Assembly: GCF_030253575.1 (NCBI RefSeq)
Contig: NC_080568.1
Coordinates: 3,650,501 to 3,714,500, forward strand
DNA: 64,000 nucleotides
Direction of reading: 5' to 3'
DNA from: Rhododendron vialii
Lineage: Eukaryota > Streptophyta > Magnoliopsida > Ericales > Ericaceae
Shown: one piece after another, positions 7,280 through 23,209 of the stretch
Numbering within the stretch: the first letter of the stretch is position 1
How the letters are laid out: each line of letters begins with the position of its first letter
Position numbers and translations under genes: made by a program
The notes under the pieces: generated by a model
What the model saw: only the letters and a program-made list of their open reading frames with translations
What the model was told of the DNA's origin: nothing
Databases searched by the model: none

Positions 7280-7442
7280 ATACTTACCTGGACGGGGTCA
7301 ATGGGCGATCAATTAGGCCTATGGCCTAGGTTGGTGGCCTCCATTGCACTCAGGAGGAGTACCCGCCTAAGGTCTACCCAAGTGGTGGAGCCTACGTCAT
7401 AATTTGTTGCCGAGGGGGCCTGCGTTCGCGCGGCCCCTGCCC
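7280..7442 (+). ncRNA. U1: U1 spliceosomal snRNA, copy 1
   Basis: The 5' end is ATACTTACCTG, the region that pairs with 5' splice sites. Then come GACGGGGTCAATGG, the loop segments CCTCCATTGCAC and GCCTACGTCAT, a Sm-like AATTTGTTG, and a terminal hairpin GGGGCCTGCGTTCGCGCGGCCCC. The length is about 163 nt. U1 snRNA selects 5' splice sites in the nucleus. A plant 3' box of the AGTNNAA type follows (AGTTAAAC near 7448). It is the first of three tandem copies. Confidence 0.93.
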
Positions 7443-8976: not shown

Positions 8977-9139
8977 ATACTTACCTGGACGGGGTCAATG
9001 GGCGATCCATAAGGCCCATGGCCTAGGTTGGTGGCCTCCATTGCACTTAGGAGGGGTGCCCATCTAAGGTCTACCCAAGTGGTGGAGCCTACGTCATAAT
9101 TTGTTGCTGTGGGAGCCTGCGTTCGCGCGGCCCCTTCCC
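8977..9139 (+). ncRNA. U1: U1 spliceosomal snRNA, copy 2 (variant)
   Basis: The 5' ATACTTACCTG and the body match copies 1 and 3. The last hairpin is altered: GTGGGAGCC replaces GAGGGGGCC, and the 3' end reads CCCCTTCCCA. The Sm-like AATTTGTTG is kept. The 3' box is weak (AGTCCAGC). It may be a functional variant or on its way to becoming a pseudogene. Confidence 0.88.
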
Positions 9140-10503: not shown

Positions 10504-10666
10504 ATACTTACCTGGACGGGGTCAATGGGCGATCAATAAGGCCCATGGCCTAGGTTGGCGGCCTCCATTGCACTTTGGAGGGGTGCCCGCCTAAGGTCTA
10601 CCCAAGTGGTGGAGCCTACGTCATAATTTGTTGCCGAGGGGGCCTGCGTTCGCGCGGCCCCTGCCC
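10504..10666 (+). ncRNA. U1: U1 spliceosomal snRNA, copy 3
   Basis: It shares the 5' ATACTTACCTG, loops, Sm-like AATTTGTTG and terminal hairpin with copy 1. A good 3' box follows (AGTACAAAA near 10674). With a perfect USE and 3' box, it is the copy most likely to be expressed. Confidence 0.95.
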
Positions 10667-14319: not shown

Positions 14320-17300
14320 ATGTTAGACTCATCAGAAGAATGGAAGTCCATGTGGCCCATCTCCTCCGTCTTCTCCCCTCCCCTCCTCCTCTCATGCGCC
14401 GCCGCCGCCTCATCTCCTTCCTCCAAAAAACCCACATCATCGCAAGAACAAGAACTAGGACCCCTCATCTTCAACCCCTCCCCCGAAACCCTAACCGTCC
14501 TCCTATCCTCCCCCGCCTCTCTCTCTCCTCACCTCCCTCCCCCCTTCCCCCACCTCTCTCTCGCCCGCTTCCTCTACACCACTCCCTCTGTCACCCATCC
14601 CTCCTCCCTCCCCCCCTCCACCGCCTCCTCCGTCGCCGCCCAACTCCCCTCCCTCTCCTCCCCCTCCTCCGAGGCGGTCCGCCACAACCGCCTCCAGTTG
14701 CTGCGGTGCCCCGGCTCGAGCTCGGTCTTCGTGTTCTTCCCCACTGGTGAAAACTCCGACCGGGTCGGGTTCGTGGTGGTGTCGGCTGAGCATTCTGAGT
14801 TGGGTGTCAGGAGAGGAGATGGGTACGGGGATGATAGGGATGGAGATGGGGGTGGGCTTTTGGTTTCCAAGGAGAAGTTTGACAATCGGATTCTTAGGTT
14901 ACTGGTTAACCCTGTGCCACATTCTTGCTCTGGTTCAGGTGATTATTGTACTACTACTGTTGGGTTTTTAATGTATGATGTTCATTGGTTTAGAATTAGA
15001 ACTAGCGTCCTACTCCTGCTAGCAAGAAAAGTATTCTGTTATGTTTAATGTTATTTATAGCTCCGGGTAAAATCTTGATATGTTTTTTACCCCTGTTATT
15101 TATGATTTATCATTAGATGTAAAAGTTTTAATGAGAGAATGTTTGAACATGAAAGGAGGTTTGAAAGCTTCTTTTTTTAAACCTTTTATATTTAGCTTTT
15201 GGTATTTGTAAAAGTGTAGAAAAAAAAGAAGAAAATGAATTTTATTAGGAGAATGCCCATTGCCCACATAGGAGAGAGAATTAAGGACGGAGCTTGATTT
15301 TTTTTTGAAAACTACACGTGCTTAGTATATACTCCGCCCCATTAGAATATGCATTGTGTATGTTTCAAATAGGGGTGTTTGGGGGCCAATATTAGTATGA
15401 TGGAATTCCTTATTTGGTTCCACATGAGAAACCTGCACTAATATAACTTACATGTCCAATTAAAAGTATTGAACTACAAGCTAGAAGTCTTTTGACTTTC
15501 GTTTGGGCCACGGCGGGCAGTGCTCCTAAGATAGTAGAAGCAATGCTGTAGAAAAAGAAGATTTGTTGCAATTTAGCTCCATCGGAACCATAAATAGAAA
15601 CACGTGAAATATTAGCAGAAATGGAGATTTTAGGCGCAATAGAAAGGAATGCTGTAACCGGGTGGGTCTCATAGATATCAGGTGCCCACATATATAGAGT
15701 CAAAAGAGATACGGAGTCCAAAAGGGAGTGGTGTTTTCTCCGTGTTTCAGAAAATGGTTAACCAACATATTAACTAACCGATAAAATCTTATTCTGTTAA
15801 AATGCATTCTTAAACATGAATTTTGAGAATGCATAATCTAAAATCCATGCCCGCGGGAGCTTTTTGATTCTCATTATGCATTCAGTCACAACATATTCTC
15901 AGATTATTAGTTAACCCTGTGCCACATTCTTGCTCTTATTCAGGTAAATATTCTACTACTACAATTGGGTATTTAATGGCTAGCACAATGTATGCTGTTC
16001 ATTGGTTTAGAATTAGAATCAGGGGACTTGGTCCGGACTTCGAGAGGCCGCCGTTTCTAGATTTTCGGGGTAGTAAATTGTTTAAGAGTTGTTCTGTTGT
16101 GCATTGTTGTTGGAGTCAGCATTTGCCCGAAGAGAGCGCGGTGCTCCTAGATAGCGGTGAATTGTTCTTGTTTGATTTATTGGATTATTGTTCTAATAAG
16201 ACTCGGGGTTTGAACAGAAGAACTAGTGGGAAAAGGATACGAATATCGTGGAAAGATTGTTCCAATAGTTTGGAAAAAGGCGGGTGGTTGAGCTGTGAAT
16301 TTAGTTGGCATCCAAGAATCTTGATTGTTGCTCATTCTTGTAATGTTTTCCTTGTTGATTTGAGGGTTGAGGGATGCAATGTGAGTTGTTTGCTGAAAAT
16401 CGATACGTTGGTAATGAATATTGCTGTACAAACTGATCGATTTGTTGCCTTCTCTAAGGCAGGCTCTGATGGGTTCTGTTTTGTTGTGGCCTCTAACCAT
16501 TGGCTGCTTCTTTGCGATGTGCGCAAGCCATTTATGCCGTTGTTGCAATGGGCCCATGATCTTCCCAACCCATTGTGCATTAACGTGTTTTCACTTTCTC
16601 AGTTGAGGTCACATTCTAAGGATGATCATTTTAAGTGGGCTGCGGACACTGGATATTGCATTGTGATGGGCTCGTTTTGGAACTGCGAATTTTGTCTCTT
16701 TTGCTATGGGCCACCCCTTAGAGCTTCGGAGATTTCAAGTTTGTGTAAATCATTTTATGCATGGGACCTCCCTTCAGAGCTCTCACTGTCCGATCGCGAG
16801 TGTCATTGCGGAAGTTGTCTTGTGAGAGAAGAGTTCTCGAAGGATGCTCTTCCTAAATGGGTGGACTGGCAGCAGAAGAAAGATATTGTTCTAGGTTTTG
16901 GCATCCTTGACAAAGACCTACATAGTGAGTTGTCGTCTGAAAAAGATGGTTTTGGTGGGTTCACACTGATTCGGCTTATGTCCTCTGGGAAGCTTGAGTC
17001 ACAGAGATACTGTGCCTCATGGGAATTCACAAAAGTATTGGAAGGACCGCACAAAGAGTCATCTCTTCATTTCGAAGATTCAGTATTGTATGCAATGGGT
17101 GAGGAGGATTTTAAATTTCGCAAGAGATTTAAGTATCTGACACTTCATTACCTCAATGAGTTCATGCACGAAAATCTTTCTAAAGTTCTTTTCACAAAAA
17201 TTGAAAAGCTTAGCAAGGATGCTCGTGAAAAGAGTTCCTTCAGTGTGGGTTTCCATCAATGTATTTGTGAGAAGTTAAGGGCATGTGGGCTCAGCAAATT

Positions 17301-18078
17301 AACGTCACCTCCGCTTGTATCTGATGTATTAAAAGACACTCGATTCCTAACCAGCATTCATGAGGTTGCTTTAAGGAGAATTTGGGCAGTTTTACCCATG
17401 GATCTTTTGCAGTTGGCATTTTCTTCGTATTCGGAGTTACTCGAAGTTCTTGAAGACCAGAAGAAGGTGTCCTTGGAATTCCTAGATGTCCCCAGTCAAC
17501 CTCAGCTGCCTCCTTTTGTCTTTCGAACGCCTTCCCGCCGTAGCACTAAGTGGTCGCAGAAGGTGCAGCCTAGTACTGCTTTTGTGGGTCCCGTTGTTCC
17601 TACTCCTGTTCTTTTCACTCTTCGCAACCTACGTATGGAAGAAGAAGAAGCATACATATTGTCAGCTAATGCTCAAGTCAATAACCTGTGCAATGAAGTC
17701 TTGGGGGTGGCCAGTGAAATGGCTACACCTGGTTCTGTTTCACTTTCTGATGATAAAGATACATCATGTTACGGTACCCTGAAAGAGAATCCTTTCTCTT
17801 TACATAAACCAGCGGCGCTATCTTGTGAGTTTTCTAGCATGGATCCTACGCAGGGTGATTCTGTTTGTAACAAAGAAAATTTTACTACCTTTGTTTCCAA
17901 AGCCCCTGTAAAGGAGCTTGTCTCCAATAACAGAACAGAGATGGTTGGTTTAGAACTCTTTAATTCTTTGTCACCACTAGACTTGAAGTTTGACGATTGT
18001 ACGATAAATTTTGGGCCAAAAGAGTTGAAAGCGCTCAAAATGTTGACAACACAGTACTCAAAGTTTTTGCAGGTTTAA
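14320..18078 (+). CDS. TAF1C-like RNA polymerase I initiation factor subunit
   Basis: Model: exon 14320-14938 joined to 15944-18078 (2754 nt, 917 aa). The start is MLDSSEEWKSMWPISSVFSP, which resembles the start of the plant proteins annotated as TBP-associated factor, Pol I subunit C. An upstream in-frame ATG at 14242 looks like leader. The N-terminal part is Pro/Ser-rich. The large exon reads as a folded WD/beta-propeller-like body (SWHPRILIVAHS, VYLVDLR-type strands) with an acidic or Ser-rich tail. The intron has donor CAG|GTGATT and acceptor ATTCAG|GT, and joining gives a split Gly codon. Without splicing the frame stops at 15048. The C-terminus is uncertain: the ORF ends FLQV at 18078, but AG|GT at 18072 could be a donor into exons I cannot identify. 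Family assignment is from memory. Confidence 0.7.
14889..15001 (+). repeat. Exon duplication, copy 1 (spans the splice donor)
   Basis: It runs from about ATTCTTAGG through AGAATTAGA and encodes a segment around NPVPHSC and VHWFRIR. The splice donor at 14939 lies inside it, so its right part (14939-15001) is former coding sequence now inside the intron. It pairs with 15895-16018. Confidence 0.85.
15408..15692 (-). pseudogene. nad2: Nuclear copy of a mitochondrial nad2 fragment (NUMT)
   Basis: The - strand encodes MWAPDIYE, then VTAFLSIAPKISISANIS, QQIFFFYSIAS, QTKVKRLLA and GFSCGT. This is the conserved core of NADH dehydrogenase subunit 2, a proton-pumping subunit of complex I. It is about 95 codons of a protein of nearly 490. 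It has lost several residues after DIYE and gained some near SSILLIGHV. It lies antisense inside the TAF1C-like intron and cannot be functional there. Serines stand where the mature edited protein has Phe or Leu (ISISANISRVSIYG), so the transfer was of unedited mitochondrial DNA. Confidence 0.92.
15895..16018 (+). repeat. Exon duplication, copy 2 (spans the splice acceptor)
   Basis: It is homologous to 14889-15001, with an extra 12 bases around GCTAGCACAATG. The acceptor AG at 15942-15943 lies inside it. Its left part (15895-15943) is former coding sequence that now serves as the end of the intron. Confidence 0.85.
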
Positions 18079-21531: not shown

Positions 21532-21727
21532 ATACCTTTCTCGGCCTTTTGGCTAAGATCAAGTGTAGTATCTGTTCTTATCAGTTTAATATCTGATACG
21601 TGGGCCATTGGCTCACATGATATTAAGTTAATTTTTTAAGGGGGAGAACTCATTACAGTAGCTTGCTGCTGGGGTTTCTCGTGTGTCGCCTTGGCGTTGC
21701 ACTGTTGCCTCGGCCCGGCGCACCCCA
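21532..21727 (+). ncRNA. U2: U2 spliceosomal snRNA, copy 1
   Basis: It begins ATACCTTTCTCGGCC and carries the branch-site pairing segment GTGTAGTATCTG and TTATCAGTTTAATATCTG. The Sm region is AATTTTTTAAGG and the RNA ends GGCGCACCCCA. The length is about 196 nt, as expected. A 3' box AGTCGAAA follows at about 21738 (consensus AGTNNAA). U2 snRNA pairs with the intron branch site in the spliceosome. Confidence 0.95.
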
Positions 21728-22684
21728 CCCAATTATAGTCGAAATTTATCTCTACGTAATACACCGATTACGAAATGTAAGGCCCGATTCGTTCAAATGC
21801 ATCTCGTTTATCTCATGCTGAGAATGAATTGTGTCATTCTAGGCATAAGCAGCAACCCCTGGAAAGAGATGACAACTGGGTGGTTGTTGGTTTAACCTTG
21901 TGAGCCTCACGAAGCCTATATCACAGGCCTATTTGTTGATTGCGGGAGGAATCGCTGTATACAATCTCAGGAGCGTAACATGAAAACTTATAGAAGGCTT
22001 TTTGTCGTAAAAAGGATTGTGTGACTGCTGAATCCCACTTTTCGTCTTCCGACTTGGTCAAGAAAACCCACACCATCTTGGTATATCCTTGGAGCTGGTT
22101 GATCTCAAAATCTCACATGTTGATCAATCAAAGAGATTCAACAATGCCCTTTCGGGAAGGTTGTGAGCGAGGGGGATTCAAACCACCGACACCGTGGTTT
22201 CTAAGCCACGTGCTCTACTCTTCTGAGCTACATGCCCCTCTATGGTTGAAACAATCGGAGACCTGGGAGTTTGTGGTTTTCCCAAATACAAAATCATTGT
22301 AAGAGTGCAGAGATATAAATTGTAAACCCAAAGACAATAGAAATGAGTAAGATGACACCAAAGATCAGACTTTAGTCTAGAATTACGGTGTACTTTCTCC
22401 TTCCAAAAACGATTATGTTCGCCTTTGTCAAGAATCCCAAGCATGTTTTTGCTTAACCCGAACAAGTTGAAATTTCAATTCCATGACTAACTTCTCTGAT
22501 GATGTTCGTATAAACAGCTTTGTTGCTTGTCCTCCAAAAGTAAAAGCTACCCGTATGCACAAATGTCGGGAACTACACAACCTTCTGGGGAGGATTTTGT
22601 TCTGCTCAAATGGGATAAGCAATTCAATTTGATTCACCAGTAGACAGAATTTTGGATACCTAATATTTATGCTTGTATCAAAAC

Positions 22685-22790: not shown

Positions 22791-22986
22791 ATACCTTTCT
22801 CGGCCTTTTGGCTAAGATCAAGTGTAGTATCTGTTCTTATCAGTTTAATATCTGATACGTGGGCCATCGGCTCACATGATATTAAATTAATTTTTTTAGG
22901 GGGAAAGTCCATCACAGTAGCTTGCTGCTGGGGTTTCTCGCGCGTCGCCTTGGCGTTGAACTATTGCTTTGGCCTGGCGCACCCCA
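22791..22986 (+). ncRNA. U2: U2 spliceosomal snRNA, copy 2
   Basis: It is near-identical to copy 1 through the first 90 nt, with scattered changes in the 3' half (for example GTTGAACTATTGCTTTGG). The end GGCGCACCCCA is intact and a 3' box AGTCCAAA follows near 22996. The promoter is consensus, so it is probably active. Confidence 0.95.
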
Positions 22987-23209
22987 CCCAAATCTAGTCC
23001 AAATTTAGCTCTACCTATCTGACTCAACTCCCTTGTAACAAAGTTTACGAACACAATAGTAGCCAAATTACCCAAAATTAATCTGGGTTCATCTCTAATT
23101 ACGTAATAAACACGACGACGATCATCCTAATTGCAAAATCCCTCACTAGTCAACATAGGAGCCAGATCGAGAGTTGCAGTGCAGAAGCGAGTAACCTTCT
23201 TGAATTCAC

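Follow-up and report, generated by a model that had tools for sequence, protein, structure and literature searches.

A predicted spliceosomal intron between duplicated exon segments of a Rhododendron TAF1C-like gene, with a Helitron and mitochondrial nad2 DNA inside it

One exon segment on both sides of the interruption

According to PMC4974935, the source of a gained intron has been identified in only a few cases. A TAF1C-like gene of Rhododendron vialii, located in a 64,000-nucleotide stretch of contig NC_080568.1 (the window, whose numbering is used throughout), raises the question of where the block that parts its coding sequence came from and in what order the components of that block arrived. 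In this case the predicted splice sites can be traced, as can a transposon and the mitochondrial filler, and the exact target of the transposon helps to order the events.

The gene lies on the + strand. Without splicing, its computed translation stops at 15048 and comprises 242 aa. When 14320-14938, which runs from the ATG to the predicted donor, is joined to 15944-18078, a computed translation of 917 aa results, with a Gly codon split in phase 1 (G|GT). This bears out the proposal of the initial annotation that joining donor 14939 to acceptor 15943 restores the frame. Exon 1 rests on this spliced frame, 100% of which is covered by homologues such as P0004 and P0005, and exon 2 is delimited by the spliced frame, by homologues and by a search of the assembly (532,647,506 bases in 13 contigs). 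In that 532.6-Mb search the exon 2 stretch 16019-18078 had a single full match, and so no second, intron-free copy of the gene was found in the assembly with this stretch as the query. The only other match was a 64-nt fragment on a different contig (L035, G000:C3:13540051-13540114), which matches a portion of the end of exon 2 at 87% identity.

Of the 270 homologues of the predicted protein that were found, the 120 listed were aligned together with 4 from a search for block-retaining ORFs, in 124 rows. The name TATA-box-binding-protein-associated factor RNA polymerase I subunit C or taf1c is carried by at least 7 of those 120. With the Pfam model TAF1C_beta-prop (cutoff 27.1 bits), the window ORF scored 23.2 bits, R. 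simsii P0001 22.6 and the relative P0003 25.3, all below the cutoff, and Actinidia P0005 scored above it at 28.3; a search for PDB relatives of the ORF gave none at E up to 1. Downstream of VDLRVEG, identity extends to 559/574 residues in P0001, 563/573 in R. griersonianum P0002 and 494/568 in P0003. The last of these is contiguous across the intron site, and its template may be genomic or cDNA. Two details concern the ends of the gene. The C-terminal codons at 18067-18078 read TTG CAG GTT TAA, which is a possible unspliced donor, and P0001, P0002 and P0003 likewise end in FLQV. At the other end, the P0001 model starts, by eye, with residues encoded from 12126 (+), which places its start ~2.2 kb before the ATG (14320), and is possibly a fused or mis-started gene model.

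The initial annotation reported about 110 bp of coding sequence on either side of the interruption, and a direct repeat of 112/124 nt does indeed frame it. Copy 1 (14890..15001, + strand), recognised from the repeat alignment and polarised by outgroup proteins, is exonic at 14890-14938 and would continue as an intronic relic at 14939-15001. Copy 2 (15895..16018, + strand), recognised from the repeat alignment, comprises a putative intronic relic that carries the predicted 3′ splice site (15895-15943) and an exonic part (15944-16018). The repeat consists of two blocks, 14890-14973 against 15895-15978 (84 nt, 86% identity) and 14970-15001 against 15987-16018 (32 nt, 97%), and a single gapped alignment with a 12-nt gap spans both, at a BLAST E of 1.5e-28 within the window. 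Differences occur at 13/112 ungapped positions, 6/49 to the left of AG|GT and 7/63 to the right. The 12 nt are missing from copy 1, between two AATG words, a pattern that a deletion between short repeats would be expected to leave. Homology beyond these limits is unconvincing, both to the left of 14890 (P 0.048) and to the right of 16018 (P 0.98; 2000 shuffles each). The copies are 893 bp apart and not directly adjacent today, and the DNA between them may be a later insertion.

Translation of the two copies confirmed that copy 1 reads on past AG|GT and that copy 2 has text of the upstream exon before it, as had been noted earlier. Across AG|GT, the protein text of copy 1 is ...ILRLLVNPVPHSCSGSG-DYCTTTVGFLM-YDVHWFRIR and that of copy 2 is ...ILRLLVNPVPHSCSYSG-KYSTTTIGYLMASTMYAVHWFRIR. 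Since homologous text runs unbroken across AG|GT in both, neither copy derives from an exon that was interrupted there. The internal text of the copies, together with the protein homologues, supports an ancestral exon that was continuous at this point, as the initial annotation had supposed.

These observations bear on whether the intron could be old, shared with other eudicots at this place rather than gained. Three homologues break off within the loop that holds the site, as they might if an intron were present there: P0123 is from Smallanthus, and P0122 and P0124 both lie nearest to Cinchona P0117. Their endings may reflect introns or frameshifts. An old intron, however, would not leave uninterrupted text across the site in both copies, and the loop in which the site sits is of variable length among the 124 aligned homologues. 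We consider an old, shared intron highly improbable.

The predicted splice junction and the side of constraint

The predicted new spliceosomal intron (14939..15943, + strand) is 1005 nt long, of GT-AG type and in phase 1, with a GC content of 0.349, lower than the 0.603 and 0.423 of the two exons. Its predicted donor GT, at 14939-14940, belongs to copy 1, and its predicted acceptor AG, ending at 15943, belongs to copy 2. The presence of the exonic AGGT segment at both ends thus supports the earlier suggestion that the AGGT of the two copies supplies both sites. The branch-point consensus is yUnAy, and the relic part of copy 2 contains a branch-point-like TTAAC with its A at 15914, 29 nt before the acceptor. 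Pyrimidines make up 13/17 positions of the tract in copy 2 compared with 12/17 in copy 1, and copy 2 has a GG to TA change. With donors at 14850-15048 and acceptors up to 16300, 161 GT-AG pairs keep the frame; among them we preferred the 14939/15943 pair because of its AG|GT context and its agreement with the homologues. We predict that the block is spliced out at the AG|GT of the two copies.

Gene models from two other rhododendrons cross or leave the exon at this point. That of R. simsii (P0001) crosses the predicted junction and reads SGSG|KYSTTTIGYLMASTM, a SGSG|KYS hybrid that agrees with copy 1 on the left and with copy 2 on the right. It is a deposited gene model, and its reading would be identical had R. 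simsii no intron. The R. griersonianum model (P0002) exits the exon right after SGS and rejoins it far downstream, losing conserved residues. A Camellia sinensis model (P0121) also exits right after SGS, into other text that looks retrotransposon-like.

Splicing at AG|GT predicts that constraint changes sides there, from copy 1 to copy 2. We polarised the differences between the copies with 122 rows, the 124 aligned homologues minus P0001 and P0002, with partial and paralogous rows kept. To the right of AG|GT, outgroups have the residue of copy 2 for S vs C (34:7) and for Y vs F (103:11), and four ASTM columns are gapped in 4/122 rows, with the D of copy 1 found in 0/122. The exception is one site, at which the D of copy 1 is commoner in outgroups than the K of copy 2 (36:4), and at a further site V and I tie at 54:54. 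Counted by hand, 6/7 of the right-hand differences change a residue, as expected of a relic. To the left, copy 1 looks ancestral, with G in 6 and Y in 1 of 122 rows (among Ericales, G in 4 and Y in 0 of 10), a weak comparison because the loop is poorly aligned and most rows have neither residue. The left-hand differences are synonymous in 4/6 cases, again by hand, which is not as predicted for a free relic. The expected switch of constraint at AG|GT is therefore indicated strongly on the right and weakly on the left.

A block that stays in, so that the gene is broken here or its transcript is spliced in some other way, would account for the distant rejoining and lost residues of the R. griersonianum model, and the unspliced frame does stop early. 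Against it stand the intact 917-aa frame, an identity of 97-98% to two species downstream, the single-copy state of the gene and the constraint switch at AG|GT. When Rhododendron ORFs retaining the block were sought, four proteins were obtained, one from Camellia, one from Smallanthus and two nearest Cinchona; the search is weak because its clusters are at 90%. We judge retention of the block to be very unlikely.

Transposon remains and mitochondrial DNA within the block

Immediately next to copy 1 lies a non-autonomous Helitron (15002..15331, - strand), antisense to the gene. It belongs to a dispersed family with at least 42 other matches at ~39 places in the assembly, as counted from 40 scored of 112 candidates. 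Plant Helitrons insert at an A|T target, start with TC, carry a hairpin near the 3′ end and end in CTRR. The family found here resembles them in its A|T target, TC start and dispersed copies, and apparently in a hairpin near the 3′ end: at 27 loci, T follows 21/21 of the 3′ ends found and A precedes 17/18 of the 5′ ends found, and the consensus has a CCGTGCATAGCACGG hairpin. It differs from the CTRR rule in ending mostly in CTTG (19/21 of the 3′ ends found, with a search word that favoured CTTG). The window copy ends in CTAG, shows 26/315 differences from the consensus, has its hairpin partly deleted and is without ~7 nt at its 5′ end, so that the TC terminus is absent. Its 3′ terminus (CTAG|T at 15002) meets copy 1 at 15001/15002, the exact base at which homology between the copies stops. 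The equivalent of this junction in the exon is A16018|T16019; since the exon reads AA|TC there, the A|T target rule of the family holds at this border.

The truncated 5′ end of the Helitron is followed by what appears to be the left terminus of a second element. In the stretch 15332..15397 (+ strand), CTCCGCCCCATTAG sits at a TA belonging to the Helitron 5′ end, and the text beyond it runs on to the firm nad2 edge. Stowaway elements have a characteristic terminus, terminal inverted repeats and a TA target, and another member of this Helitron family, L022 (G000:C5:15069950-15070600), has a whole Stowaway-like element nested in its 5′ end. The stretch 15325-15400 is single-copy in the assembly, and in the window only the left end of a Stowaway-like element is present. 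The assignment of the 15332 terminus to a Stowaway-like MITE is for these reasons a lead, short of proof.

Mitochondrial DNA occupies 15398..15757 on the - strand, as delimited by tblastn of 28 nad2-like ORFs. One tblastn row (P0148) extends to 15766, and the true edges may lie further out. The earlier report of nad2 DNA inside the intron was confirmed by Pfam (Proton_antipo_M, 3.5e-17), by plant Nad2 chains (E down to 2.5e-36) and by tblastn. A chloroplast origin was rejected on comparing the best chloroplast chain (4.5e-11) with the best plant Nad2 chain (2.5e-36). The piece consists of nad2 exon text (15398-15691), which we take to be exon 4 preceded by intron 3, and of preceding text that appears unspliced (15692-15757). 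The text before MWAPD is common to the window and 6/28 nad2-like ORFs (P0130, P0138, P0145, P0147, P0148 and P0151, the last with an equivalent of MWAPD). In two Papaver ORFs (P0126, P0133) the corresponding text is LFKIT-VPFH instead, as would fit a spliced exon junction. The piece thus apparently spans an unspliced mitochondrial intron/exon border, and with the border unspliced it would derive from DNA or from unspliced RNA. It retains S where some plant chains show F or L, which fits unedited DNA.

Within the nuclear genome, the nad2 piece sits on contig C12 of 13, between exons of the gene, and has decayed, with a stop, indels and 14/91 residues changed. The same nad2 border is carried elsewhere in the assembly by L033, one of the three short nad2-like pieces (L031, L032, L033) that were all we found in a search of the assembly for a larger mtDNA stretch. 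A search for a source of the mtDNA among viral contigs gave 19 stretches that fitted a pattern, of which 0 were confirmed. Rfam detected no group II intron when 15000-15950 was searched with E values up to 1, even though six nad2 ORFs share the text ahead of the exon.

Between the nad2 piece and copy 2 lies filler (15758..15894, no strand assigned), for which a search with 15745-15900 returned only itself in the assembly. It contains an imperfect palindrome (P 0.001). A 14-nt inverted match links 15334-15400 with 15740-15894 (P 0.008 by 1000 shuffles, uncorrected for the seven comparisons made), and the stretches flanking nad2 are possibly two ends of one element that encloses it. Continuation of the exon, from either side, was sought in 15334-15384 and 15758-15894 and none was found (P 0.23-0.81 in 4 comparisons of 1000 shuffles each).

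These positions allow us to assess whether a single event made both the repeat and the patch. In the initial annotation, a single staggered double-strand break was filled in, which made the direct repeat, and organelle DNA patched it during that repair. Gained introns of Daphnia are on record both with direct repeats and with mtDNA (excerpts of PMC4202315; PMC3443670), and as far as the excerpt of PMC4202315 goes, the repeats between exon and neointron there are 4-12 bp long, compared with 112-124 bp here. The firm edges of the nad2 piece lie 396 bp from copy 1 and 137 bp from copy 2, and the mtDNA touches neither. Because it is the Helitron terminus that meets copy 1, at the family's own A|T target, and because nad2 reaches neither copy, the single-break proposal loses its main support and is in our view unlikely. 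The broader claim of intron gain by AGGT duplication fared better: the AGGT segments, the frame and the continuous exon speak for it, with the corrections that the copies are not adjacent today and that a patching of the duplicating break by the mtDNA is not supported.

Order of events and comparison with known introns

The reading we favour, at a probability of about 0.5, is that the intron was born by duplication of the exon segment, that the Helitron likely then entered the relic of copy 1, and that nad2 was likely captured later still. Duplication of the 112/124-bp segment with its AG|GT would have yielded a first neointron that was short and purely exon-derived, as in the classical AGGT route. 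After insertion of the Helitron, a break inside the resulting transposon nest would have led to capture of the nad2 piece and the filler, and its repair may also have deleted the Helitron 5′ end and any further copy 1 text. The present size of the intron would then be due to ordinary insertions after birth. If duplication came first, copy 1 text beyond the equivalent of 16019 must have been lost, and none was seen in the intron stretches compared. Divergence does not separate the ages of the components (13/112 for the copies, 26/315 for the Helitron and 14/91 aa for nad2; Fisher p 0.21 for copies vs nad2), and the order rests on the logic of the junctions.

The same junctions admit another order, which takes fewer steps. 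The Helitron may first have entered the intact exon at A16018|T16019, leaving a broken allele, and a later break inside it may have been end-joined, with uptake of nad2 DNA and other filler, to the sister or homologous chromosome, within an intact exon and at a point ~124 nt upstream of the insertion. One repair would in this way make the duplication and both AGGT sites. Copy 1 would then end exactly at the Helitron 3′ terminus, at the A|T target of the family, with no lost remainder of copy 1 to be explained; the filler side would lack both the 5′ end of the Helitron and the other end of the MITE, as it does; and the divergences of the copies, the Helitron and nad2 would be alike. However, a broken allele of a single-copy gene would have to persist, ends from different chromatids would have to meet, and no intermediate was seen. 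Were this order true, the intron would have been born as a scar left by the rescue of an exon that a transposon had disrupted, with mtDNA as filler. We regard an insertion of the Helitron before the duplication as a tentative possibility. Duplication before the Helitron is the most likely order, because a lasting null allele of a single-copy gene is required at none of its steps. Published Rhododendron genomes make the order testable, with duplication, Helitron and nad2 each present or absent per species.

Introns born by AGGT duplication and introns that hold mtDNA are already known; among the matches listed, their combination with a Helitron at the border of a copy was not described. Curtis and Archibald reportedly described, in 2010, introns of Bigelowiella that hold mitochondrial DNA. 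A Daphnia neointron contains mitochondrial 16S DNA, according to excerpts of PMC4202315 and PMC3443670. The predicted intron resembles these cases in placing mtDNA within a spliceosomal intron of a nuclear gene, and differs in that its splice sites come from exon copies, its mtDNA is antisense and lies amid transposon remains, and part of that mtDNA appears to be the end of a mitochondrial intron.

AGGT duplication introns are on record in vertebrate ATP2A1 (Hellsten 2011) and in fission yeast SPOG_01682/SOCG_00815, as told in the excerpt of PMC4974935. Like them, the R. vialii gene has an exonic AGGT segment on both sides, with the GT of copy 1 and the AG of copy 2 as predicted sites, and a protein left unchanged by removal. 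Unlike them, it has 893 bp between its copies, made up of a Helitron, a Stowaway-like end, mtDNA and filler, and splicing here is predicted. The excerpt of PMC4974935 also describes a potato RdRp intron gained through tandem duplication and documented with RNA-seq and outgroup DNA. This too is a duplication-born intron in a plant gene whose copies differ at about ten sites; in potato the duplicated stretch spans a pre-existing intron-exon border, from which its signals are inherited, whereas the duplicated text here is purely exonic. Among the matches listed, none reported this intron or one in which an exon duplication is combined with a Helitron and mtDNA.

Several small RNA genes occur in the same window. 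A tRNA match at 22164-22237 (- strand) scored 33 bits against an Rfam threshold of 29, and ARAGORN found none. Three U1 snRNA genes (7280-7440, 8977-9137 and 10504-10664) lie on the upstream side of the gene with the predicted new intron and two U2 snRNA genes (21532-21728 and 22791-22987) on its opposite side, all on the + strand.
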